A stretch of DNA of 64,000 nucleotides from an uncultured Bacteroidota bacterium (GCA_903910445.1 CAIVZR010000002.1:1-64000), one strand, 5' to 3'; positions 50,894 through 64,000 are shown, counted from the first letter of the stretch. The notes: generated by a model not told the origin, from the letters alone. Made by a program: numbers and translations.

Positions 50894-51526
50894 TTAAAAT
50901 GATCTCACTGCCCTAACATAATAGGATGTGTTTTTTTCAGGATTAAATTGAGAATTACTGCTGGTATTAAAGTATTGTATCCAAGCTTTGTCGATAGTGC
51001 TTTCACTTGAACTCCAATAGCCTTTGGGAATAGCAAACCCACCGATTGCATTACGATTTAAATAGAGTTTAGTAAGTTCGTTCAGTGAAGGGAGATACCA
51101 ATCGCTAAATCCACCTAACACTAAATCAGAACATATTTTTGCTGCATAATCACCGGTGCCTTGAAGGCCTACAATTGTATTGGTGTTTTTGTTTCCCCAG
51201 CCCATCGTTTTGGATGTAGCATTGGTTGTCATATTTGTAATATTACTCCAAGTAGCATCAATACTCTGATCGGAAGGAGCTGCAATCAAACCATGACGTA
51301 TATTAGGATCATAGCCATCATCACCAGCTTCAAGGATATACGCTAATTTACCCCCTTGAAAATCATCTCCAACAACTAGATAAATACAAGAACCATCGTC
51401 TTCGTTGGCTTTCGAATTATAATTACTAGAAGATGGATCCGTGCAACCTCTTACCTTTTTCTTGCAAGCAGGAGAAACAATAATGAGAAGCCCAAAAGTA
51501 ATTAAGATTAAAATATACTTATTCAT
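50894..51526 (-). CDS. DUF1566-domain lipoprotein
   Basis: 210 residues with lipoprotein signal (LLIIVSPAC; Cys21). A short Bacteroidota-typical motif follows (GCTDPSSSNYNSKANEDDGS, residues about 27-46), seen in many exported proteins. The C-terminal part (about 60-210) is a DUF1566/fimbrial-lectin-like fold: GGFSDWYLPSLNELTKLY, GYWSSSE, then YVRAVRSF at the end. It is a probable outer-membrane or surface lipoprotein of unknown ligand. Confidence 0.85.
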   Translation of the reverse strand: MNKYILILITFGLLIIVSPACKKKVRGCTDPSSSNYNSKANEDDGSCIYLVVGDDFQGGKLAYILEAGDDGYDPNIRHGLIAAPSDQSIDATWSNITNMTTNATSKTMGWGNKNTNTIVGLQGTGDYAAKICSDLVLGGFSDWYLPSLNELTKLYLNRNAIGGFAIPKGYWSSSESTIDKAWIQYFNTSSNSQFNPEKNTSYYVRAVRSF

Positions 51527-51676: not shown

Positions 51677-53518
51677 TTACTGTTTTGTGATTTTTGAAGT
51701 AGTAGTAACTCCACCAATTATGGTCTTAACAATATAAATTCCATTAGATAGGTTAGCAATGTCAAGAGATACATCCATAGTATTCGGTTCCAATGAGATA
51801 ACTTCTTGTCCCATTACATTAGAAATTGTTACATTTTCTACATTTTGAGCAGCCTCAATTTTTAATGTGTTGGTGGCAGGATTAGGATAGATATGCGTTG
51901 TTGAAACGTTACTTTTGTTAATACCTATTGATGTTTTTCTGAAATAAACATTATCAACATAAACGGTACTTGTACCTGTTGGAACACCTACTAATATATA
52001 TTGAGCTAGGTGAGCTCTCGTGGTTAAACCTGTAAAGTCAGAAAGCAATAAATCATAGCTATTCCATGATTTCAAAGTTGGAGGAGTTAATGTTAATTCA
52101 TGCTCCTTATCATCTCCACCACCAAAGGCTCCGTCAGCTCCAAAATCAACCAACTTAACTTTAAAGGTAGTCATATTCGGGGTCCAAGCATCAAGGTGTA
52201 ACCATTTCATTGGGGTTGCGTTTATTTGATTTGCTCCTGTGGTTTCTATTCCAACAAAATCTAAAGCTGAATACTTTTTGGTATCGTTTCCTGCAATTTG
52301 CAAATCAGTTAAAGTGGCTGCCGACCAGCTTGTGCGCCAGGTATCAACAGTTTTATTAGTATAAGCATTGCTAAACATAGAAATAACATCGGCAGCTGGC
52401 CATGTTGGGGTTGGCGCTGCTACTGTTGGAATATTAGGATCTACAAATGGCACTTTATGGAAATATACATTATCAATGTATATGATACCCGAACCTGCTG
52501 GAGCACCCGAGAATATCAATTGTGCGATATGGCCCTTTGTTGTTAAGCCAGTAAAATCAGACAATGGAATTTCGAATCCATTCCATGAATTTAATGTTGG
52601 TGTAAAAGTTAATTCGTGTTCTTTGTCATCACCACCACCAAAGGCTGCATCAGCACCAAAATCAACCAATTTAATACGGAAGGTGGTCATGTTTGCAGTC
52701 CAAGCATCAACGTGAAAGTATAGCATTGAAGAGGCATTGATTAGGTTTGGACCTACTGTTTCAATACCAACAAAATCTAATGATGAATATTTTTTAGTGT
52801 CATTCCCAACAATTTGCAAATCAGTAAGTGTAGCTGATGACCAGCTAGTGCGCCAAGTATCAACGGTTACGTTGGTATAAGCATTGCTAAACATCGATTT
52901 TACATCAGCTGCGGGTTTAGTCGGTGTTGGTGCAGCAGCGGATGGTGCTGGAGGAGGTGTTGCTCCAGAAAAAGTGATATTATCCCAATAACATACGTTG
53001 TCTGTTGTTCTTGCTTGGAAATCAGGAAAAACCACAATTTGATCATTTGTTTCTCCTATTTTACTAGTGAAGTCGAACGTGATTTCTTCCCATTGGTTGA
53101 TCACTGTATTTGGTTTTTTAATCTCGCCTGTTGATCCTCCTGTAGAAGTAACCAGTTTAATACCTACATCGCTAATTACCGATTTGTAAACCATAATTTT
53201 GATTGTAGAATTAGAAGCAGAAATGGTCCAAGTACCAATTCCTGCGCCATGTGAAGATTCAACTCCAGCCCATGGTTGACCAACAACCAATGGAGTTAAT
53301 TTAGCAACCGTTGCAGAAGTGTTTACACCTCCTGAAACAGGGTTAGAGATAATTTGCATAGGGGCACTCGTCGCCCCGTTTTCAAAGGTTGTCCAAGTCC
53401 AGGTAGCTCCGTTACCACCGGTTTCAAAGTTGATTGGAACATTTTGTGAGAAGCCCGCAAAAGAGAGCAATAGAAGCATTGCAAAAGCAAATTTTCGGAT
53501 GTGTAATGTGTGTGTCAT
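51677..53518 (-). CDS. T9SS-secreted protein with duplicated glycan-binding-like module
   Basis: 613 residues with signal peptide (FAMLLLLSFAGFSQ). Three beta-sandwich parts: an N-terminal CBM-like region (about 27-190, ending NVCYWDNITF), then two near-identical modules at about 195-355 and 367-528, each starting AAPTPT..PAADV and ending YVDNVYFRK-like, with DTWRTSW, GNDTKKY, KLVDFGADGAFGGGDDKEHEL and LSDFTGLTT in common. A type A T9SS sorting domain closes the chain (HIYPNPATNTLKI). I recall this module beside GH16 beta-glucanases in Bacteroidota. No catalytic residues are seen, so it probably binds glycan. First gene past the GH16/GH3 genes. Confidence 0.85.
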   Translation of the reverse strand: MTHTLHIRKFAFAMLLLLSFAGFSQNVPINFETGGNGATWTWTTFENGATSAPMQIISNPVSGGVNTSATVAKLTPLVVGQPWAGVESSHGAGIGTWTISASNSTIKIMVYKSVISDVGIKLVTSTGGSTGEIKKPNTVINQWEEITFDFTSKIGETNDQIVVFPDFQARTTDNVCYWDNITFSGATPPPAPSAAAPTPTKPAADVKSMFSNAYTNVTVDTWRTSWSSATLTDLQIVGNDTKKYSSLDFVGIETVGPNLINASSMLYFHVDAWTANMTTFRIKLVDFGADAAFGGGDDKEHELTFTPTLNSWNGFEIPLSDFTGLTTKGHIAQLIFSGAPAGSGIIYIDNVYFHKVPFVDPNIPTVAAPTPTWPAADVISMFSNAYTNKTVDTWRTSWSAATLTDLQIAGNDTKKYSALDFVGIETTGANQINATPMKWLHLDAWTPNMTTFKVKLVDFGADGAFGGGDDKEHELTLTPPTLKSWNSYDLLLSDFTGLTTRAHLAQYILVGVPTGTSTVYVDNVYFRKTSIGINKSNVSTTHIYPNPATNTLKIEAAQNVENVTISNVMGQEVISLEPNTMDVSLDIANLSNGIYIVKTIIGGVTTTSKITKQ

Positions 53519-53617
53519 GTTTGTAATTAAGTATAAATGATTGTTGTTAAATGTTGCCCTTAATAATTTATCGGGCGTTGAATATGATTGATTTTAGTTA
53601 GTTGGAGTTCGAATAAA

Positions 53618-54454
53618 TTATAAGGGTATATAGTTGAAATTTTTTATGATTACTTCATGGTTCAAACCATTATTGGGAGCCACTCCATTGAGAAGCCATA
53701 GGTTAAATCGAACATTCGTTGAGTCGCTAGGAGCGGGTATTACAATAGGGTCAGAAATACGACTCCCTTCAATTTTATTTCGGGAGCGATTGCTACTATT
53801 AAAACTCCATTCTGACGTTTTATTACTTCCCGGATAAACTTCTCCTTCGTAACTTTCCCATGCCACGCTATCTGGGGTCCAGCGCATCATATACGTCATG
53901 GGCTTACTTATATATTTTGTAGCGATATTGGGTTTACGGCTTCTTTCCTGATATGGCGTTGGATTACTAAACCAAACAGGTTGAACACTATAAGTAACAA
54001 GCAACGAATCAGAAGGCACATCCCATTTAGCAAACTCCACGTCAATTTCACTATTTCCTTGCTTTTGAAATGAATAATTATCCCAAGTGAAAAATCCAAA
54101 AACGGCCTTTTGATCAAAGTTTCTAATATCACTCAGACATGTAAAAATGTAAGTTCCATAGCTAAATTCCTTGGTGCTGATAATCTCGCTACAGTACCAT
54201 AGGTTGTTCTTCTTGGTAATTTTTAAATGTAAATATCCTTGGGCATCAACAAATGCATTCTCACTCGTACCTAAAAAACGATTGGGTCCCGGTCCTACAG
54301 GGTCGGCATTGTTCTTATATTTCCATTGATAGCCAGAAAATTCAAAATCGCCCTTCTCCTCTCCTCCAATAACAGGTGGATCGGATTGCTTGCATCCTGC
54401 CACCACAATTAATAGAAGAATAAACAACAGTATATTTCTTGAGCTAGTTAACAT
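53618..54454 (-). CDS. Glycoside hydrolase family 16 lipoprotein
   Basis: Endo-acting beta-glucan hydrolase, 278 residues, with a lipoprotein signal (IVVAGC; Cys21). The GH16 catalytic signature is NSEIDVEF with nucleophile Glu136, Asp138 and acid/base Glu140, that is the E-x-D-x-E form without the beta-bulge residue, as in lichenase-like members. FSYGTYIFT (about 97-105), FGFFTWDN (119-126), YMMRWTP and FNLWLLNG are family landmarks. Membrane-anchored, probably facing outwards. It overlaps the GH3 gene by 11 nt. Likely substrates are mixed-linkage or beta-1,3-glucan; sequence does not decide. Confidence 0.86.
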   Translation of the reverse strand: MLTSSRNILLFILLLIVVAGCKQSDPPVIGGEEKGDFEFSGYQWKYKNNADPVGPGPNRFLGTSENAFVDAQGYLHLKITKKNNLWYCSEIISTKEFSYGTYIFTCLSDIRNFDQKAVFGFFTWDNYSFQKQGNSEIDVEFAKWDVPSDSLLVTYSVQPVWFSNPTPYQERSRKPNIATKYISKPMTYMMRWTPDSVAWESYEGEVYPGSNKTSEWSFNSSNRSRNKIEGSRISDPIVIPAPSDSTNVRFNLWLLNGVAPNNGLNHEVIIKNFNYIPL

Positions 54455-56699
54455 ACAATGTTTTCTTTTGGTTGTTTATCATTATTTGAAATTCTCCATT
54501 TTCAGTTACTCTTTTTAAATCCTTATTTATAAAAGATAGGTCTGAACGATGTATCATGAATCGTTGTTCCTTTGATTCTTTGGGCATTAATTCAATCTTA
54601 GAAAATCCCATCAGCTTTTTAACCGATGGTGTAATTGACGCCACCAAATCAGTATAATATAATTGAACCACCTCTTTACCTTTTGTGTTTCCTGAGTTTT
54701 TAACAGTTACGCTTACCTCTATCGAGTCATTACTAGAAAGCGTGTTTTTAGAGAGTGAAAAATTTGTATACTCAAAACTTGTATAGCTTAACCCAAATCC
54801 AAAATCAAATTGTGGCTTGTACGCATTGATTGAAAAGTCGGTTGCTAAATCTTCAGATGCTTTATGGTCATAATGTGTAATTGCATTCACATTACTTGGA
54901 TAGGTAAACGGTAACTTTCCACTTGGATTCACTATTCCATAAATACAATCAGCGATTGCCCTTCCACCCTCATCACCTGGCAGATAGGAATAAATTATCG
55001 CATCAGATTTGTCAATTAGGTTATTAATTATCCTTGGGCGGTTAAAACAACATACTAGTATGATTGGCTTGTTAAGTTCTTGAAGGCGCTTCACGAGCAG
55101 CTGTTGAGCATTAGTTAAAGCCAAATTATCTATATTACCTGGCAATTCTGTGCAAGGAGTTTCACCTAAACAAATAATGATTTTATCAGCATTCTGCGCT
55201 TTTGAAATACACTCTTCAATATTTACAACACTATCAATAGTACAACCCAATACATATTGTACTGATGATTCATTTGCGTTTTTTTGAATCGCTTGATAGA
55301 TTGTTAATTTACCCGGAGTATTGTAAGTTGAATCAACTCCTTGCCAGGTATGCGTCCACGCACCGTTCAATAAATTCAGGCTATTGGCAGCAGGTCCGCA
55401 AACTAGAATTCTCTCTTTTTTATTTTGAATAGGTAGTATTTGATTTGTGTTTTTTAGTAAGGTTAAGCTTTCTGATGCAACGTCATAACTAATGGAAGCA
55501 TGTTGTTTTGAACCAAAGAGAGAATAATCAATTTTTGAATTTGTAGTTGTATTAAATAAACCTAAATCCTTTTTTAATTGTAGTATGCGTCGAACAGATG
55601 CATCAATTTTATCCATCGGTATACTTCCTTCTTTGATTAGTTCCACCAATAATTTTGTAAACTCAAAATCATTGGGCGTCATACTCATGTCGATACCTGC
55701 CATTATTGCCATTCTAACTGCTTCTTTTTTACTGGCGGCAACACGATGTATAGAAACCAATTTATAAATATCTTCCCAATCCGTAAGTATTACTCCTGTA
55801 AATCCTAATTCTTCTCGTAATAGTTTGGTGAGTATATCATAATTAACATGCACTGGAGTGCCATTAATTTCACCAGAGTTAATCATCACTGTTTTTGCGC
55901 CTTGTTTAATGGCTGTTTCAAAAGATGGTAAAAAGTACTCTCGTAATTCACGTTCTGAAATCCATGCTGGGGTGCGGTCTTTGCCACTCAATGGCATACT
56001 GTAACCTAAAAAATGTTTCATACATGCAGCCACTTGATAAGGGCTACTTACATCATTGCCTTCTAAACCTCTTATAGCAACTTTTGCCATCGACTTTGAT
56101 AAATAAACATCTTCACCAAAAGTTTCAAAATATCTTGACCACAAGGGTTGCCGACCCAAATCTAAAACTGGTGAAAAATTCCATGGAATTCCACTGGCTC
56201 TTGTTTCATAGGCAGTAACCTGATAGCCCTTTTCTACTAAAGCCGGATTCCATGTTGCCGCTTGTCCAATTTCTTGAGGGAACAAGGTGGCACCCATGGT
56301 ATAGTTAGCACCATGAATAGCATCTATTCCATAAATAATAGGAATTTTTATTCTGCTTTGATGCAGGTTTTCACTATGAATTGTATTTAATATTGAATGC
56401 CAATTTTCAAGTGAAATGGTACCACTTCCACAACCCACATTTAGTATCGACCCTATATGATACGTTGAAATTGCCAAATCCAATTTAGCTAAATCAAGTG
56501 TTTGTGGGTTCTTTAGTTTACATATATCCCCTTGGGCTATCACACCCAAATCGATTTGCGTCATTTGGCCTGCCTTTTCTTCAATAGTCATAATAGCCAA
56601 CAAGGAATCAATATTGATACCCGCTACTTTTTTTTGCGCGAAAATGTTTCCCGCAAAAAGCATCATAACAAAAAAGAAAAAGCGACTGTACTTATTCAT
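54444..56699 (-). CDS. Glycoside hydrolase family 3, BglX-like beta-glucosidase
   Basis: 751 residues with signal peptide (VMMLFAGNIFAQ), so periplasmic. Domains: GH3 TIM barrel (about 28-370) with catalytic nucleophile Asp307 (GVILTDWEDI) and KHFLGYS 228-234, alpha/beta sandwich (about 400-590, LVCGPAANSLNLLNGAWTH), and C-terminal fibronectin-III-like domain (about 650-745, SVTVKNSGNTKGKEVVQLY). BglX-type enzymes release glucose from beta-linked oligosaccharides. Between the upstream CBM-like lipoprotein (1 nt) and the GH16 gene (11-nt overlap), it is the final saccharifying enzyme of the locus. Confidence 0.95.
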   Translation of the reverse strand: MNKYSRFFFFVMMLFAGNIFAQKKVAGINIDSLLAIMTIEEKAGQMTQIDLGVIAQGDICKLKNPQTLDLAKLDLAISTYHIGSILNVGCGSGTISLENWHSILNTIHSENLHQSRIKIPIIYGIDAIHGANYTMGATLFPQEIGQAATWNPALVEKGYQVTAYETRASGIPWNFSPVLDLGRQPLWSRYFETFGEDVYLSKSMAKVAIRGLEGNDVSSPYQVAACMKHFLGYSMPLSGKDRTPAWISERELREYFLPSFETAIKQGAKTVMINSGEINGTPVHVNYDILTKLLREELGFTGVILTDWEDIYKLVSIHRVAASKKEAVRMAIMAGIDMSMTPNDFEFTKLLVELIKEGSIPMDKIDASVRRILQLKKDLGLFNTTTNSKIDYSLFGSKQHASISYDVASESLTLLKNTNQILPIQNKKERILVCGPAANSLNLLNGAWTHTWQGVDSTYNTPGKLTIYQAIQKNANESSVQYVLGCTIDSVVNIEECISKAQNADKIIICLGETPCTELPGNIDNLALTNAQQLLVKRLQELNKPIILVCCFNRPRIINNLIDKSDAIIYSYLPGDEGGRAIADCIYGIVNPSGKLPFTYPSNVNAITHYDHKASEDLATDFSINAYKPQFDFGFGLSYTSFEYTNFSLSKNTLSSNDSIEVSVTVKNSGNTKGKEVVQLYYTDLVASITPSVKKLMGFSKIELMPKESKEQRFMIHRSDLSFINKDLKRVTENGEFQIMINNQKKTLYVN

Positions 56700-56700
56700 T

Positions 56701-57342
56701 TTAAATTTTAATCAACTTAATATTATCCAGATATATATTTCCATCTCCTTCGAGTTGAATAATAAATTGTTTTACCTTTTCTAAATCAAAACCTTGCCGC
56801 TCAAAAGGGAAATTAACGAGCGGTATAGTAACCGTTGTCCATGCTGAATCATTAAATTCTCCAGAAGCTAATCCTGCGCGGTATCCATAATAACATTGAA
56901 CACCTGAGTAATCTTCAAAAGCAAAAGCAACGGGCAAATTGGAAAAATTACCTTTCACCGATTTGATTTGCATTTGTATCGCTGCTATTTTGGTGATGCT
57001 GAGCATGTCCTTCGCCATCCAATTATTCCAACCAAAACCAATCCCTACCCATTTACAACCGCCTTCGATTTTATCCCAAGTTACTTTTAAGGAAGCCTTG
57101 CCTGAAAATACATTTTGCTGATCAGTGGTTAGTTGAACACATTGACGTTCAGGAGAAGCCCACACACATTTATCCATATCATCACCGAAAACAGTTGTGG
57201 CGGTAAAACCCGCGATTTCATTGCTATCGGCAGGTGGCACAACATCATATAATGCCCTAGACTGAAAGGCCACGAATGACTTACATGACCCAATTAGAAA
57301 GAGCAAAGCACCACAGAATAATATCGATAGAACTTTTTTCAT
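56701..57342 (-). CDS. CBM-like lipoprotein of the glycan locus
   Basis: 213 residues with lipoprotein signal (LFLIGSC; Cys20). The mature part is a single jelly-roll/galactose-binding-like domain: QNVFSGKASLKVTWD, IAAIQMQIKSVKG, then the common closing pattern VKQFIIQLEGDGNIYLDNIKLIKI, as in CBM11-type modules. No active-site residues are visible, so glycan binding at the cell surface is the likely job. It overlaps the next upstream lipoprotein gene by 1 nt and the GH3 gene follows after 1 nt. Confidence 0.78.
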   Translation of the reverse strand: MKKVLSILFCGALLFLIGSCKSFVAFQSRALYDVVPPADSNEIAGFTATTVFGDDMDKCVWASPERQCVQLTTDQQNVFSGKASLKVTWDKIEGGCKWVGIGFGWNNWMAKDMLSITKIAAIQMQIKSVKGNFSNLPVAFAFEDYSGVQCYYGYRAGLASGEFNDSAWTTVTIPLVNFPFERQGFDLEKVKQFIIQLEGDGNIYLDNIKLIKI

Positions 57343-58346
57343 TAGGGCTCTAATGGTTTATTGTTTGTGAACATTATAAAATCAATTTTGGTGCTCGCAA
57401 AACCATTACTAGGATTGGCCAAATGAAGCATCGAAATTTTTCCTAACCTATCGGGATTATGTAATGCATTGCCTTTCGCTGCAGAAGGATTTCCATTAAC
57501 AAGTGTTACGATATCTGAGTACCTTACAGAAACCAATTTCCATCCCTCCCAATCAACATTTACTTGATAATCGTATTCATCTTCATTATTGGCATTGAAA
57601 GTGCCATCTCCATTTTCATCTTCCTTAAATTGAAATAATACAAGAGAAGAATTGGTGTTCGGCACTCCGTAAATTAAACAATTAAAATAGGTTGCATCGG
57701 GGTTTGTTGAAAGTGGGAAAGTAACAGAAGTGCCATAGGCTATGGCTGGGAAATCGATAAGGCCAATTAAATAATCCCAATTAACAGTCCCTGCCATATT
57801 CAAGTATTTTTTACCCTCTGGCGCGAATGAATCGGTCTTCACCTGAAAATCCATACTTGCACCCGATTGAATAAATTTAGTCCACTTGGTGTTTAATCCC
57901 GCCTCAAAATCTGCAACGATAAATCCATCATTTTTTTTCGGGTGAATAATTTTTACGTTAACAATAAATGAATCGGCAACATTTGCAATCTTCAACTTGG
58001 CAATACAAGGCTCAGTTCCAAATACAGGGAATTTGGTTGTTGAGCCGTTCCATACACTGTTGCTTACAGAAATAATACGCCCATCTCCTTTAATTATTTT
58101 TACTGCCTTACTTGTAAGTCCAGTAATAGTAATTTGCCAAGAAACAATTTTGTTGAAAGACGCAGAAAAGTTGACTTGATCCCCTGTTGAGAAATCAACA
58201 CTGTCTTTGCTAACCTTAAAATTATCGAGTAACTTAAAGTCGCTATAAATCTCTGCAATACTTGGTCCATCAATTGTTTTCTTATCCTTTCTACAAGAAA
58301 TAAAAACAATCAAAAGCAATGAAACGATGAGAATAAGCTTATTCAT
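57342..58346 (-). CDS. Surface glycan-binding-like lipoprotein
   Basis: 334 residues from ATG 58346 (MNKLILIVSLLLIVFISC), a lipoprotein signal with Cys18; the frame extends ten codons further into the upstream gene. An Ig-like part (about 30-135, ITGLTSKAVKIIKGDG) precedes a beta-sandwich (about 145-330, IVADFEAGLNTKW, then WEGWKLVSVRYSDIV and the closing TKIDFIMFTNN). The pattern suggests a carbohydrate-binding protein like SGBP/SusE-type accessories, but I recognise no named family. One nt from the upstream barrel gene, so they are translated together. Confidence 0.72.
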   Translation of the reverse strand: MNKLILIVSLLLIVFISCRKDKKTIDGPSIAEIYSDFKLLDNFKVSKDSVDFSTGDQVNFSASFNKIVSWQITITGLTSKAVKIIKGDGRIISVSNSVWNGSTTKFPVFGTEPCIAKLKIANVADSFIVNVKIIHPKKNDGFIVADFEAGLNTKWTKFIQSGASMDFQVKTDSFAPEGKKYLNMAGTVNWDYLIGLIDFPAIAYGTSVTFPLSTNPDATYFNCLIYGVPNTNSSLVLFQFKEDENGDGTFNANNEDEYDYQVNVDWEGWKLVSVRYSDIVTLVNGNPSAAKGNALHNPDRLGKISMLHLANPSNGFASTKIDFIMFTNNKPLEP

Positions 58347-58347
58347 T

Positions 58348-60054
58348 TTATAACGAGATATTATAGAGTAATCCAAATTGATTGATGTTGAAATCAGTAT
58401 TGTTTTTTAATTTATCCTGATAACTGCTTTGCTGATATAGCGCACATAGATATGCTTTTGAGCTAAAATTATATCGTATTCCAACTGCCTTTATCTGTTG
58501 CGTTAAAGAGTAATTTGTAAGTGTATAATAAATCACTTCTGTATAACCATTTCTGTCAGCTATAAAGTCAAACCCTTTATTGGTTTGGGAAATAAAACCT
58601 CCTAACAATTCAAAATTTGAAATAAACTCCCAACGAAATCCGGCGACATATTGCGTTGTTTTATAATCCGCGTTTTCTATCGACTCATTGCTTTTTCGAT
58701 TGGTGGCTTGTAAATTAGTGCTGAGTTGCAATGTGAGTGTTTTTTTGCTGTTGATATAACGGTTAACAGGAATGTTCACATTAAACTTTACAATTGAATA
58801 TTTCCTTAGTGCAAAAGAACCTTGCCCTCTTATTTCCGAAAGATTGAAATATTCGCCATTTAATGCCAAGCCCTTATTCCCTCTATACAATACCTTGCAG
58901 TACATTCCAACCCTATTGAAAGTGGCTATTCCATAAGGCAAAATGGTATTAAATATTTTGCTTTCAGGCATCAATGGGCTGGTCACTGTTCTGTTATAAA
59001 TATTTTCATTCCCAATTACATCAAACAGTGTTATAGGTCTTACTTGTTGGGAATTGGTATACCTGTTGAAATAGGTAGGAAGTGCGTTATAGTTAATGTC
59101 TTTGCTTTGTGCTCCAATACTTCTGAAATCGGGGCCAACATTTAAATATCCAAGTGTTGCTTTCAAATTCAATTTTGTGATGTTTATGTCACCGTAAACA
59201 TTTATAAAATAATCATTCAATTGCGGAGCAAGTGAATCGGCTGAATAATGATAATTACTGGTTCCCGCTTCCCCATTCAACGACAGCTCTTGAGTTCCAA
59301 CAACCTGTTTTAGATTCAGTGTAAATGTGTTCACGTTGTTCTTGAAGATATTATTACCGGCAATGGTACCTTTCACATCAAAAACATTATTACTAAAATA
59401 CCCTAATTGAAGTTTGTTGCTTTGAATCAATTGGATTCCGATGCCATCCATTAATCTGTCGGGAACAGTAGAGAAATTAGTTGCATTCAATCGATTGATG
59501 AATGCGTTCACATTTATTTCTTTAAGATATTTTGAAAAAGTAAAACCAAAATCAATATCTGCGCCTTGCATTCGCCAACTATGGTTGTCTTTGTAAAATC
59601 TTTCATAATTCACAATGTTTTGTTGCAATCCAAATACCGATGGCAAAGAATCAATCTGATCCGCATGATGATTGTAAAGTGTAAATGGCGTTTGCTTAAG
59701 ATTGATATCACCTAGCTGGTAACGAAGCGCATTGGCAACAACACCCTTAACCCACAATTGTCTTACATCAAAATTTACTCCCGATCCCCAAAACCCACCG
59801 TAATCATTTCTAATCCGAAACATACCCAAAATTTCAGTGTTCTTATTCGGTTTGATATTCACACCAAAATCAATTAAGGCATAGCCTCCATTGTTTTTCT
59901 TTACAGTAGTGGTATCGGCTAATGAATCATTTACCACCAAAGTGTTGCTGTTAAGAAACGAACGTGCTCCTCCAACAAAGCTAACCTTACGTTCGGTTTG
60001 CGCTTGTATCAACGTCGAATAACCTATAAAAACAAAAAGTAAAAATTTCTTCAT
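58348..60054 (-). CDS. Outer-membrane beta-barrel protein of the glycan locus (unclassified)
   Basis: 568 residues from ATG 60054 (MKKFLLFVFIGYSTLIQAQ); the frame extends 12 codons further. After the signal peptide the sequence is uniform amphipathic beta-strands separated by Asn/Asp/Ser-rich turns (VSFVGGARSFLNSN, MFRIRNDYGGFWGSGV, YCKVLYRGNKGLALNGEYF, QFGLLYNISL end). There is no plug, TonB box or carboxypeptidase-like domain, so it is not SusC. It could be a barrel that takes up oligosaccharides or anchors a complex. It is tightly linked to the downstream lipoprotein gene. Family not recognised. Confidence 0.72.
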   Translation of the reverse strand: MKKFLLFVFIGYSTLIQAQTERKVSFVGGARSFLNSNTLVVNDSLADTTTVKKNNGGYALIDFGVNIKPNKNTEILGMFRIRNDYGGFWGSGVNFDVRQLWVKGVVANALRYQLGDINLKQTPFTLYNHHADQIDSLPSVFGLQQNIVNYERFYKDNHSWRMQGADIDFGFTFSKYLKEINVNAFINRLNATNFSTVPDRLMDGIGIQLIQSNKLQLGYFSNNVFDVKGTIAGNNIFKNNVNTFTLNLKQVVGTQELSLNGEAGTSNYHYSADSLAPQLNDYFINVYGDINITKLNLKATLGYLNVGPDFRSIGAQSKDINYNALPTYFNRYTNSQQVRPITLFDVIGNENIYNRTVTSPLMPESKIFNTILPYGIATFNRVGMYCKVLYRGNKGLALNGEYFNLSEIRGQGSFALRKYSIVKFNVNIPVNRYINSKKTLTLQLSTNLQATNRKSNESIENADYKTTQYVAGFRWEFISNFELLGGFISQTNKGFDFIADRNGYTEVIYYTLTNYSLTQQIKAVGIRYNFSSKAYLCALYQQSSYQDKLKNNTDFNINQFGLLYNISL

Positions 60055-60230
60055 GAAATTTGAATAAAATTGTCCGAAAAGTATTCCCATAACTTTGTAA
60101 AATTGTTAAAGAATGGCTCTTTAGCCTATTGGACGACGAAAAAAGAATAAACTGACGATTGTCTAGAAAAATAATTTAGAACTTCTGTTATAAATAGAAA
60201 ACAAAAGGAAGGGCTCTGGAATTGAGCGTA

Positions 60231-62135
60231 TTAGAAAAACATTTTTAGTTCAACGGTGGTTTCAAAACCACGGTATTTGTCATTAGAAAAACTCATGTCA
60301 CGATAATTCATCCAACGCTCTCTCAAATACAATCCTACCCCTTTGCTTAGCTGAATATCCATTCCAGAAGCAATGCTAATCCCCTTCTGGTTTTTTGGTC
60401 TTCTAGTAACCACATCCACTCGAGTATCATAATTTGCAATGATTCGTTCGGCTCCAAAATAATTAGTCCATACTAATTTTGAATTTAATTTATAGTAAGT
60501 TTCTATTTGGTGACTGTATGCTCTAATAAGTGCTTTCTCCTTGAAAACAACAAAGGGTGAAGCAAAATTCTGCACCGAACTATATGATCCAAGGTAGAAT
60601 AAATACAGCTCTTTTCCTGCCAAGCTAGTTTTGTATTTGGTATTAATTTCAATAGTATTGAAGTACTTCTTAGAAAGTGGTTTGCCTGTACTCGTATCAA
60701 TCTTGGTAACATATACCGTTTCATACACAGAGCGATATATTTTACTTAAGTTTTGATATGGACCCACTTCACTAGGGAAATCCCATCTCCAGAAACGAGA
60801 GAGTGAAAGATTATTGAAAGCGTGCCCATAAGTTATTTTGGGTGATAGGCTTTCGAGTTCCGCTGCCGTTGAGTAGCCAAATGAGGTTTTAAATTTTCCG
60901 ATATCAATTTGTGAGTTTAATTCAATGCCTTGGCGATTATTGGATAATTGACCTATTGGCAACATGGCACTTGATACAGGTATCAATACCGGTTGATTCA
61001 AAGCATTGGTTGAAGTCGTTTGCTGTATTGATGAATTGATAAATACTGAACTGTTATTAAAAACATTCGGACTTACACGGTACAAATGAATTTCAGTTGG
61101 AACTTTGTGGCCAATACTAGTTGACGTTTTAATAGAAATCGCCTCTCCCCATTTACCTGTTTTATTATTGGTAAACCTACGTCCAGCACCAATTTCAGAG
61201 TATACTTTTACATTTCCGAAATAATGTGTTTGCTCCACGGTTGCCATATTAAACCCCGCTTTATTCGTATTCATTGAATCAAGATTACTTGAATTATTGA
61301 AGGTGTTGAATGAAACAAAATTTTTGTTGTAGCCATAGGTTCTAACTAGGCGCCCGCCAAATGAACTATTGGGAACAGAAGATAAACCACCGTCAAATTG
61401 AGTCTTTCCGTACATAGCACTGAAGGATAAATTTCCTGGCAATTGAGCTCCCTCCACTATCAAGCCTTGAAATGCTTGATTTCCCCAACGTTGATCTTGA
61501 TTGATTGCTCCCGAAGAATAGAAATCAGAGTATCTTGAATCAACGCGTGCGGTGTTTGGATCCCATGGATTTCTCTCAAACAAACTATAGCGATTATAGC
61601 CCTTACTTGCTTGAAATGTAAATGGTGATAATGAATACCAGTTTATTCCACCAGTTTTCACAGCATAATTTCCATGTTTAGTTGAGAAGTTTCCATATAA
61701 ACTTACCCCTAAATTTAAACCTTTCACATTTTCCTTTTCTCCCAAACCTGTGAGTGGGGTCCACAAATAAAGATCTGTGCCGAATGACGTTCTGCTGCTA
61801 GTATAGCCATTGATATTCAGCATCAGTTGTGGAATTTGACTATCATCTCCAACAAAAATATTGTTCTTATTGTTAGCAAGGTTTGTGTACACATCGCTCA
61901 TTTGTCGATAGTTGGTGATGAATCGATAATAGCCACTCACATCTAAATTTTCTAAACTTTCAAACGGCTTTTTGAAATTATCACCAAGTTTTTCAAAATA
62001 TTCATTTTTGGTACTCAGTGTTGAACTATCTGTTAAAGATAATTTTCTGTTGGTGCTTACTTGCGCTAATAAACTGCTTTGGGCAATACAAGCTATAAAA
62101 AGTAGGGTTGTGATAAACGTTTTCATGAAATTCAT
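60231..62135 (-). CDS. Second outer-membrane beta-barrel protein of the glycan locus (unclassified)
   Basis: 634 residues (631 if the ATG at 62126 is used) with signal peptide (TFITTLLFIACIAQ). From about 60 the chain is beta-barrel like (LDVSGYYRFITNYRQM, QLMLNINGYTSSRTSFGTDLYLW, ending in TVELKMFF with the terminal Phe typical of outer-membrane barrels). No TonB-dependent plug is seen, so it is not SusC. It starts 2 nt after the GH-A glycosidase gene and precedes the other barrel gene by 176 nt. A role in glycan passage or in display of the enzymes is inferred from context only. Confidence 0.72.
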   Translation of the reverse strand: MNFMKTFITTLLFIACIAQSSLLAQVSTNRKLSLTDSSTLSTKNEYFEKLGDNFKKPFESLENLDVSGYYRFITNYRQMSDVYTNLANNKNNIFVGDDSQIPQLMLNINGYTSSRTSFGTDLYLWTPLTGLGEKENVKGLNLGVSLYGNFSTKHGNYAVKTGGINWYSLSPFTFQASKGYNRYSLFERNPWDPNTARVDSRYSDFYSSGAINQDQRWGNQAFQGLIVEGAQLPGNLSFSAMYGKTQFDGGLSSVPNSSFGGRLVRTYGYNKNFVSFNTFNNSSNLDSMNTNKAGFNMATVEQTHYFGNVKVYSEIGAGRRFTNNKTGKWGEAISIKTSTSIGHKVPTEIHLYRVSPNVFNNSSVFINSSIQQTTSTNALNQPVLIPVSSAMLPIGQLSNNRQGIELNSQIDIGKFKTSFGYSTAAELESLSPKITYGHAFNNLSLSRFWRWDFPSEVGPYQNLSKIYRSVYETVYVTKIDTSTGKPLSKKYFNTIEINTKYKTSLAGKELYLFYLGSYSSVQNFASPFVVFKEKALIRAYSHQIETYYKLNSKLVWTNYFGAERIIANYDTRVDVVTRRPKNQKGISIASGMDIQLSKGVGLYLRERWMNYRDMSFSNDKYRGFETTVELKMFF

Positions 62136-62137
62136 AA

Positions 62138-63475
62138 TTATAAATCAAAGGAACTCATATCTGTATATTTCAATTTGATAAAGCGCGCTTGCTTATCTTC
62201 CGCGCTTCTAGGTAGCACTCTAAATGGAATATTAGCATAGGCCATTTTCCCATTAGATACAATGGATACGAAGAGTCGGTAAGCTCCTTCTCGTTCGGGG
62301 GTCCGAAATAAAATTTTACTATCTGAAGCGCCTTTCAATATTAGACCAGCTATTTCAGTTGCTTCGCTTTCAACATCTCCTCCCGACTTTTTATCAGTAC
62401 TCTCTTCCATTACTCGCCAATGATATTTAATATCTCCCTGTTTTAATGAATCTGGAAGATTTAAGATTACTTCTGCGTAAAATTTATTCTCTGCCTTAAG
62501 TTCCACGTTTTCTTTGGCAACCTTGTTATCAATATTAATTTTAAGAATTGATGGGGCGGGGTTTTTTATTTCAATTCCTTTGAAAGCCTTTTCTAGGGCA
62601 TCAATGGGCTCCGTCGGCATATTCTCTTTTGAAAAAAGCCCGTACCATGTTTCGGTATATTCTTGTTTTGCACCCCACAAAAAGGCATAGGATCCTAAAC
62701 AATATTGTTGATTGGCCTCTATATAATTTTTATATCGTTGATAATACACAATGGCTTTCTCGGTACTTGTTTGCTCAATTGAAACACCCCAGCTAGTTTG
62801 TGGCGATTCCCAGTGTCCATTTGGACCCCACTCTGTAATCATGTAGGGGCCATTCCAACCAAATTTTCCAATATTCGATGGCACGTTGGGTATATCTCCA
62901 TAAGTATTTACGCAATAGATATCTATATCGGGGCAACGCTCTTTGATATAATTTACTTCCAAAGAATCAAGTCCAGCTGTAACAGTAGAGGTAGGGTGGT
63001 TTGGATCGGTTTGATGAATATACTTTGCAATATCCTGAACAGCATTCCAACAATTTGGGTTGGTGTATTCCAAATCTAGTTCATTTCCAATACCCCACAA
63101 AAGCAAAGCAGGATGTCCTTTGAAGCGATCAACTACCGTTTTAAAATACTCGAGTTGCTTCTTTACTTTTGCTTCATTATTATAATCAAACCCGTGACGC
63201 TCATGTTGAAGCCACATTCCCAACATCACAGTTAGCCCTCTTTTTTGTGCTTCGTCTAGTATTTGTTGTGCGTTTTCTACGCCCCATGTTCGAAGTGAAT
63301 TTGCACCTATCGCCACCATCTTATCAAAATTCACCTCACCTCCAACACCCTTTACATAATAGGGTTTCCCATTTCTTAATAAAGTAAATCCTACTTCATT
63401 TTTTTGAATGGTTGTTTGAGCAGAAACAAAAATAAATTGAAAAAATACAACGGAAAATAAAGCGAATTTGTACAT
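62138..63475 (-). CDS. GH-A clan glycoside hydrolase (GH2/GH5-like TIM barrel)
   Basis: 445 residues with signal peptide (FFQFIFVSAQ). The TIM barrel (about 40-300) shows the clan GH-A pair: acid/base Glu132 after Asn131 (WGIGNELD) and nucleophile Glu215 (MITEWGPNGHWE). GVGGEVNF, LRTWGVENA and SYAFLWGAKQEYTETWYGLF are supporting landmarks. A C-terminal beta domain (about 320-430) may bind glycan. It is probably an endo- or exo-beta-glucanase; GH family number cannot be set without a search. It begins the minus-strand locus, opposite the sugar transporter. Confidence 0.83.
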   Translation of the reverse strand: MYKFALFSVVFFQFIFVSAQTTIQKNEVGFTLLRNGKPYYVKGVGGEVNFDKMVAIGANSLRTWGVENAQQILDEAQKRGLTVMLGMWLQHERHGFDYNNEAKVKKQLEYFKTVVDRFKGHPALLLWGIGNELDLEYTNPNCWNAVQDIAKYIHQTDPNHPTSTVTAGLDSLEVNYIKERCPDIDIYCVNTYGDIPNVPSNIGKFGWNGPYMITEWGPNGHWESPQTSWGVSIEQTSTEKAIVYYQRYKNYIEANQQYCLGSYAFLWGAKQEYTETWYGLFSKENMPTEPIDALEKAFKGIEIKNPAPSILKINIDNKVAKENVELKAENKFYAEVILNLPDSLKQGDIKYHWRVMEESTDKKSGGDVESEATEIAGLILKGASDSKILFRTPEREGAYRLFVSIVSNGKMAYANIPFRVLPRSAEDKQARFIKLKYTDMSSFDL

Positions 63476-63518
63476 GATTTGAATGAATTTTAAAAGATCC
63501 TTTTATTCCGAAAAGTTG

Positions 63519-63553
63519 CAAAATAATAAAATTTAATGTACGTTGCGCGCAAA
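63519..63553 (-). promoter_or_regulatory. Candidate promoter of the glycan locus
   Basis: On the minus strand, TTTG (63550-63553) and TTATTTTG (63519-63526) are 23 nt apart; the -7 element deviates from TAnnTTTG in one base. The -33 element overlaps the TTGCGCGCAA palindrome, so a bound regulator would block or affect this promoter. Confidence 0.45.
63543..63552. promoter_or_regulatory. TTGCGCGCAA palindrome, possible operator
   Basis: A perfect 10-bp GC-cored palindrome in the otherwise very AT-rich space between the divergent glycosidase and sugar-transporter genes. Its place at the -33 element fits a sugar-responsive repressor site (LacI-like sites are palindromes of this kind), but no regulator gene lies in the window and no second copy was found. 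Confidence 0.45.
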
Positions 63554-63616
63554 ACTTTTTTAAATAATTCTCAAAAAGTTTCATTTTTCTAAAAAATATT
63601 AAAAAAAAATACATCC

Positions 63617-64000
63617 ATGCAAGAGAAAATTAATAGCTCAAAAAATGCGTCACAACCCACTAATTACAAGGCTTTAAGCATGCTTGTTACGGTGTTCTTT
63701 TTTTGGGGATTCGTAGCGGCAAGTAATGACATTCTAATTCCCGTTTTTAGAAATGCATTTAATTTGTCTCAAGGTGAAAGTCAATTAGTGTCGTTGGCCT
63801 TTTATATTGCTTATACAATTGGCTCACTTATTTATATGGGAATCTCTCTTTTATTGAAAGAAGATATCGTTAATAAAATAGGATATAAAAATGGTTTAGC
63901 TCTTGGTTTGGGAATCTCCGCCTTAGGAACTTTATTGTTTTATCCTGCAGCAAATACGGGTTCATTTCCATTAATGCTATCTGGACTTTTCATTGTTGCC
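63617..64000 (+). CDS. MFS sugar transporter, FucP/GluP-like, N-terminal part (runs off right edge)
   Basis: 128 residues are visible from ATG 63617 and the frame stays open to the window end. It begins with a short polar segment, then four membrane helices (ALSMLVTVFFFWGFVAASND, SLAFYIAYTIGSLIYMG and later segments). FFFWGFVAASNDILIP followed by F.L...ESQLV is characteristic of the glucose/galactose and fucose permease branch of MFS (GluP/FucP). It imports the monosaccharides released by the divergent glycan-degrading genes. The stop lies outside the window. Confidence 0.88.
   Translation, partial: MQEKINSSKNASQPTNYKALSMLVTVFFFWGFVAASNDILIPVFRNAFNLSQGESQLVSLAFYIAYTIGSLIYMGISLLLKEDIVNKIGYKNGLALGLGISALGTLLFYPAANTGSFPLMLSGLFIVA

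Follow-up and report, generated by a model that had tools for sequence, protein, structure and literature searches.

A putative SusC/SusD-independent polysaccharide utilisation locus with two plug-less barrels in an uncultured Bacteroidota bacterium

Glycan uptake by Bacteroidota is viewed almost wholly through SusC/SusD transporter pairs, and automated finders of polysaccharide utilisation loci (PULs) rely on such pairs. The question raised here is how a locus that encodes glycan-active enzymes and no such pair takes up its oligosaccharides. The locus (51677-65074) lies in a DNA stretch of 64,000 nucleotides, called the window below, from an uncultured Bacteroidota bacterium (GCA_903910445.1 CAIVZR010000002.1:1-64000); it covers the beginning of an 87.4-kb contig (C2; end 87408) in a 3.43-Mb genome. 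From the sequence alone, the original prediction had assigned to this locus glycoside hydrolases (GH) of families GH3 and GH16 and of clan GH-A, two binding-like lipoproteins, a type IX secretion system (T9SS) protein, a sugar MFS transporter and two outer-membrane barrels. Every gene is present as an open frame at its predicted position; the GH-A enzyme belongs to family GH158, and the GH16 match stays below the Pfam cut-off. On the minus strand, from 63475 downward, the order is GH158, barrel 1, barrel 2, lipoprotein 1, lipoprotein 2, GH3, GH16-like lipoprotein and T9SS protein. We consider it reasonably probable that this is a SusC/SusD-independent PUL for beta-1,3-glucan, with uptake via the paired barrels.

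Two barrel proteins and their conserved core

Neither a SusC-type TonB-dependent transporter (TBDT) nor a SusD lipoprotein is encoded in the cluster, and no susC/susD was found in the 23 kb to the right of the window, where open reading frames were read to contig position 80000 and whole-genome SusD and TonB profiles gave no match on the contig; this confirms the predicted absence of the pair. Barrel 1 (634 aa; 60231-62135, minus strand) and barrel 2 (568 aa; 58348-60054, minus strand), whose starts at 62135 and 60054 agree with the predicted ones, gave no match above noise in Pfam or NCBIfam, not even to TonB receptor and plug domains. Barrel 1 together with 11 relatives matched zero families in these databases, and among 25 barrel-2 proteins stray weak matches came from single members only; a search for barrel 2 on plasmids gave no match. 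With no TonB-receptor or plug domain match, the barrels were rejected as TonB receptors, in agreement with the non-SusC character predicted for them.

AlphaFold2 models, built on 27- and 25-sequence alignments, predict a large plug-less outer-membrane beta-barrel in both cases, with about 22-24 strands in barrel 1 (pLDDT 74.9) and 22 strands in barrel 2 (pLDDT 84.4). In VIA-align, both proteins match, over their length, the barrel part of TonB receptors, and both models align with the BT1762-1763 transporter chain 5t3r_D from residue 211 on (Z 14.7-15.1, 389-394 residues, rmsd 4.2-4.3). The likeness to SusC-type transporters concerns the barrel that follows the plug; the window barrels have neither the plug nor a Pfam match. 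Foldseek and VIA-align also gave tied matches to OccK/OprD porins, chitoporin, LamB, AlgE, ushers (FimD, Z 16.7) and TonB barrels. Because of these ties we claim no more than a large plug-less barrel and rejected a name by fold; as porins and ushers score equally, the matches do not establish common descent with the SusC barrels.

A scan of genome contigs recovered 14 related loci, largely from lake, pond and other environmental genomes. Of 64 genomes of the order, 27 gave a match to a barrel 1 profile, as did 48 of the 395 genomes sampled from the class Bacteroidia (about one in eight; 30 of 196 genera), sometimes at several places per genome; a less diverse profile applied to a mostly high-quality phylum set matched 6 of 395, so the abundance estimate depends on profile and sample. 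About 75 loci were read for gene order (one pair of loci being the same contig). Barrel 2 directly follows barrel 1 in 73/73 readable cases and lipoprotein 1 follows barrel 2 in 66/67; barrel, barrel and lipoprotein form a fixed core. A home-made profile detected no TBDT adjoining the core in relatives, except one approximately 5 kb upstream in L072. The recurrence of the same gene set and order in dozens of unrelated contigs excludes chance. The two barrels evolve together: their pairwise distances across 68 loci are correlated with a Mantel r of 0.92, a value reached by 0/999 permutations.

The enzymes beside the core change. GH158, GH3 and GH16 are the partners in most loci, and GH16 with GH3 is found in L129 and its relatives. 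L138, L141 and presumably L142 carry GH9 with CelD_N (cellulose), L140 carries GH97, and L137 and its relatives carry GH18 with genes of the glucosamine-6-phosphate-isomerase family and PIG-L. On a quick barrel-1 tree, with cargo labels taken from annotations and some assigned by similarity only, cargo is clustered (12 changes against a shuffled mean of 20.5; 0/200 shuffles as low), and the GH9, GH97 and GH18 loci fall together on one side. The window's own family holds both near and remote versions of the locus, and several of the loci closest to that of the window belong to other families, which suggests horizontal movement. Relative to the open-licence papers found, the new points are the substrate class of this variant, how widely it occurs, its fixed core and the exchange of cargo; a description elsewhere is possible.

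Glycan-active enzymes, surface proteins and the likely substrate

The GH158 endo-beta-1,3-glucanase-like enzyme (445 aa; 62138-63475, minus strand) has a signal peptide and neither a lipobox nor a T9SS tail. It matches over its full length PDB 9oro (E 2.7e-91) and 6pal (E 2.5e-69), the latter of which we take to be the BuGH158 structure. Aligned to these two, it retains the Asn-Glu acid/base in GNE and the nucleophile Glu in TEWGP, within a clan GH-A barrel followed by an Ig-like C-terminal domain. The GH3 beta-glucosidase-like enzyme (751 aa; 54444-56699, minus strand), also with a signal peptide, matches Pfam at E 1e-68, and its nearest solved GH3 is PDB 5jp0 (BoGH3B; E 1.6e-177). The GH16-like lipoprotein (278 aa; 53618-54454, minus strand) is divergent: its Pfam match (E 0.005; 16.8 bits against a cut-off of 22) is below threshold, a search of PDB sequences gave no match, and the beta-bulge residue of laminarinases is missing. 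Its ExDxxE-type catalytic motif NSE[IV]D[IV]E, here NSEIDVEF, is kept in 21/21 homologues.

The beta(1,3)-glucan PUL of Bacteroides uniformis has GH158+GH16+GH3 as its enzyme trio (PMC7157763), and a laminarin-like substrate is therefore likely; the beta-glucan target of the original prediction is narrowed by GH158 to beta-1,3-glucan. That PUL, 1,3GUL (BACUNI_01484-01490; PMC7157763), shares with the window genes for GH158, GH16 (GH16-like in the window), GH3 and surface glycan-binding proteins (SGBPs), and differs from it in having a hybrid two-component regulator and, for uptake, SusD with a SusC TonB transporter. The GH16 of that PUL is of the beta-bulge GH16_3 type, whereas the GH16-like protein of the window is not.

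A target of mixed-linkage glucan or cellulose instead of beta-1,3-glucan appears rather unlikely to us. Beta-1,4 and mixed-linkage glucans are ligands of the CBM30 and CBM11 folds, and CBM30/CBM11-like folds in the locus, the missing laminarinase beta-bulge residue and the nearest solved GH3, BoGH3B, which we believe to come from a xyloglucan locus, would all fit such a target. Yet no GH5 or GH9 cellulase is encoded in the window locus, which has GH158, GH3 and the GH16-like protein instead, and GH158, the enzyme most constantly tied to the window's clade of the module, belongs to a family whose members assayed to date act chiefly on beta-1,3-glucan (PMC7157763).

Three of the remaining proteins may bind glycan. 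Lipoprotein 1 (333 aa; 57342-58343, minus strand; lipobox ISCRKD) is SGBP-like, with a C-terminal half weakly similar to CBM11 (Pfam CBM_11, E 0.019) and no match among PDB sequences. Lipoprotein 2 (213 aa; 56701-57342, minus strand) is SGBP-B-like, with one CBM30/CBM11-like domain (CBM30-like, E 3e-6; xyloglucan-binding SGBP-B domain, E 1e-4; PDB profile matches to CBM30/CBM11); in alignment it corresponds to the N-terminal half of two-domain relatives of 380-400 aa, and two-domain SGBP-B forms are present in other GH158 loci. The T9SS type-A protein (613 aa; 51677-53518, minus strand) has two near-identical CBM11-like modules, the repeat being visible in the translation (CBM_11, E 0.008), and ends in a type-A sorting domain (PF18962, E 1e-12; TIGR04183, E 2.5e-12); SprA was found in the genome. 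Secretion by T9SS had been predicted to replace part of the usual lipoprotein system. The locus bears this out in part only: three lipoproteins remain (53618-54454, 56701-57342 and 57342-58343), and no more than one of its genes has a T9SS tail. In one relative, lipoprotein 2 and GH3 are fused in a single open frame of 971 aa (L107:4175-7090), which supports a joint function of the two and would fix GH3 to the outer membrane.

The uptake route and its alternatives

In the arrangement we favour, a SusC/SusD-independent PUL, glucan would be captured at the cell surface by the lipoproteins and the T9SS protein and cut by the GH16-like lipoprotein and GH158, provided that these enzymes are located there. 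The oligosaccharides would then cross the outer membrane via the paired plug-less barrels, with the SGBP lipoproteins as presumed partners, GH3 would finish the degradation to glucose, and the MFS transporter would bring the glucose in. Uptake through the barrels is probably TonB-independent, as the missing plug suggests, in which case consumption on the inner side could drive the flow.

The nearest studied system is the "atypical PUL" for cellulose of Cytophaga hutchinsonii, chu_1276-1280, in which two adjacent outer-membrane protein (OMP) genes are followed by those for CHU_1278 (SGBP-like), CHU_1279 (SGBP-B-like, 375 aa) and an endoglucanase. Both OMP genes are required for growth on cellulose, in which CHU_1279 and the endoglucanase are also important and the SusC/D pairs are dispensable (PMC12016534). 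CHU_1276 is a predicted barrel resembling TBDTs, and this type of locus has been described only for cellulose, in three species (PMC12016534). Both loci have on one strand the order OMP, OMP, SGBP, SGBP-B, glycoside hydrolase (62135 down to 54444 in the window, and likewise in relatives) and neither has SusC/SusD. They differ in that the SGBP-B of C. hutchinsonii has two domains and approximately 375 aa while that of the window has one domain and 213 aa, and in that a cellulose-specific endoglucanase stands where the window has GH158/GH16/GH3, the T9SS protein and the MFS transporter. The core of the window locus also occurs in many genera beside GH18, GH97 and other partners.

The GH9-bearing relatives connect the two. 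They keep the chu_1276-1280 order, and the 380-aa fourth protein of L141 has Y89, F92 and F180 and Y255 and F258, mirroring the published aromatic residues of CHU_1279 (W89, F92, F180; Y253, F256). In the GH9-bearing f66 loci, the barrels are matched by profiles of the window type with E values no higher than 1e-117. By this gene order, residue fingerprint and profile evidence chu_1276-1280 is a probable member of the same system. If the link holds, the C. hutchinsonii mutants speak, together with the conserved two-barrel core and its swappable enzymes, for the predicted alternative uptake or surface arrangement, in which transport itself is our assumption. Mutants of chu_1276 and chu_1279 grow poorly on 0.1% glucose, and this defect fits a channel role (PMC12016534).

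Several points weigh against this account. The confidence of the barrel 1 model is modest, the GH16 assignment is weak, and CHU_1276/1277 are linked to the barrels through gene order and residue positions, not aligned sequences. GH158 and GH3 have plain signal peptides here, compatible with action inside or outside. The bacterium's own genome has TonB receptors (18 hits) and, on contigs C68, C65 and C80, one to three SusD-like genes; these might act in trans. We nevertheless judge it improbable that this is an ordinary PUL whose oligosaccharides are imported by a SusC/SusD pair encoded among these, with the barrels as accessory surface proteins: the barrel pair is kept as the core in every related locus, whichever enzymes adjoin it; a genome that is 99% complete (G020) carries the full module and has no PF07980 SusD detected; and it is the OMP pair, not the SusC/D pairs, that C. 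hutchinsonii needs for growth on cellulose (PMC12016534).

Instead of being sugar channels, the barrels might be devices for assembly or export that deliver, for example, SGBPs or enzymes to the cell surface or attach the cell to glucan. The structure matches to pilus ushers and AlgE, close in score to those of porins and TonB receptors, would be explained in this way, as would the finding that CHU_1279 is needed physically more than for binding (PMC12016534). We think a role of this kind quite unlikely, as no usher, chaperone or glycosyltransferase genes are among the annotated neighbours and the poor growth on low glucose seen in mutants of chu_1276 and chu_1279 argues for a role in sugar entry (PMC12016534).

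Uptake via the paired barrels may have a wider meaning. With rather less than even confidence, we put forward a second general outer-membrane glycan importer of Bacteroidota, an obligate pair of plug-less barrels of approximately 22 strands with SGBPs, free of TonB, whose enzymes are swapped for beta-1,3-glucan, cellulose, chitin or alpha-glucan and of which chu_1276-1280 would be the sole studied member. If this is true, the old question of how C. hutchinsonii imports its cellulose products would turn into a single instance of a general system whose parts are defined. As the core is widespread and free of SusC/SusD, and its barrel families are absent from Pfam and NCBIfam, laminarin, cellulose and chitin loci have probably been overlooked, for example in the window's order, most genomes of which have zero to three SusD genes.

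Surroundings and variant loci

The divergent sugar-type MFS transporter (485 aa; PF07690, E 3e-17) starts at 63617 on the plus strand, runs through the window's end at 64000 and continues to contig position 65074; an MFS gene 40-81% identical to it adjoins the same locus in several relatives. Several neighbouring genes of the locus overlap or almost touch, and a 177-bp gap between the barrels precedes barrel 2. The single divergent promoter of the original prediction is compatible with the 141-bp gap between GH158 and MFS (63476-63616), but the Bacteroidota promoter pattern is absent from the coding strand of this gap, as it is from that of the 177-bp gap; its count across the window is little above that in shuffled sequence.

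Among the variants, the remote version of the locus has a divergent Reg_prop/LuxR-type regulator of 950-970 aa (L058:11073-13991, in which the domains were tested; similar frames in L059-L068), and no such regulator stands beside the window's version. In f66 genomes (L136:2902-10267, L137:7634-17731, L134 and L135) the GH18/isomerase/PIG-L core adjoins GAPDH-like and phosphofructokinase-like genes, and these loci are likely a chitin version placed beside central-metabolism genes. The GH97 of L140 extends over two overlapping frames (L140:1179-3361), a genome frameshift or a sequencing error. Two sulfatases lie directly upstream of a two-barrel core that also holds GH158 (L119:4372-7465), which suggests a sulfated or mixed glycan as the target in that lineage.

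To the right, past 64000, the remainder of the MFS gene is followed by purH and other housekeeping-looking genes. The left flank holds recR, recognised by reading the translation, and an Lcl-domain lipoprotein (50894-51526), a homologue of which also adjoins the same locus in the relative L056.

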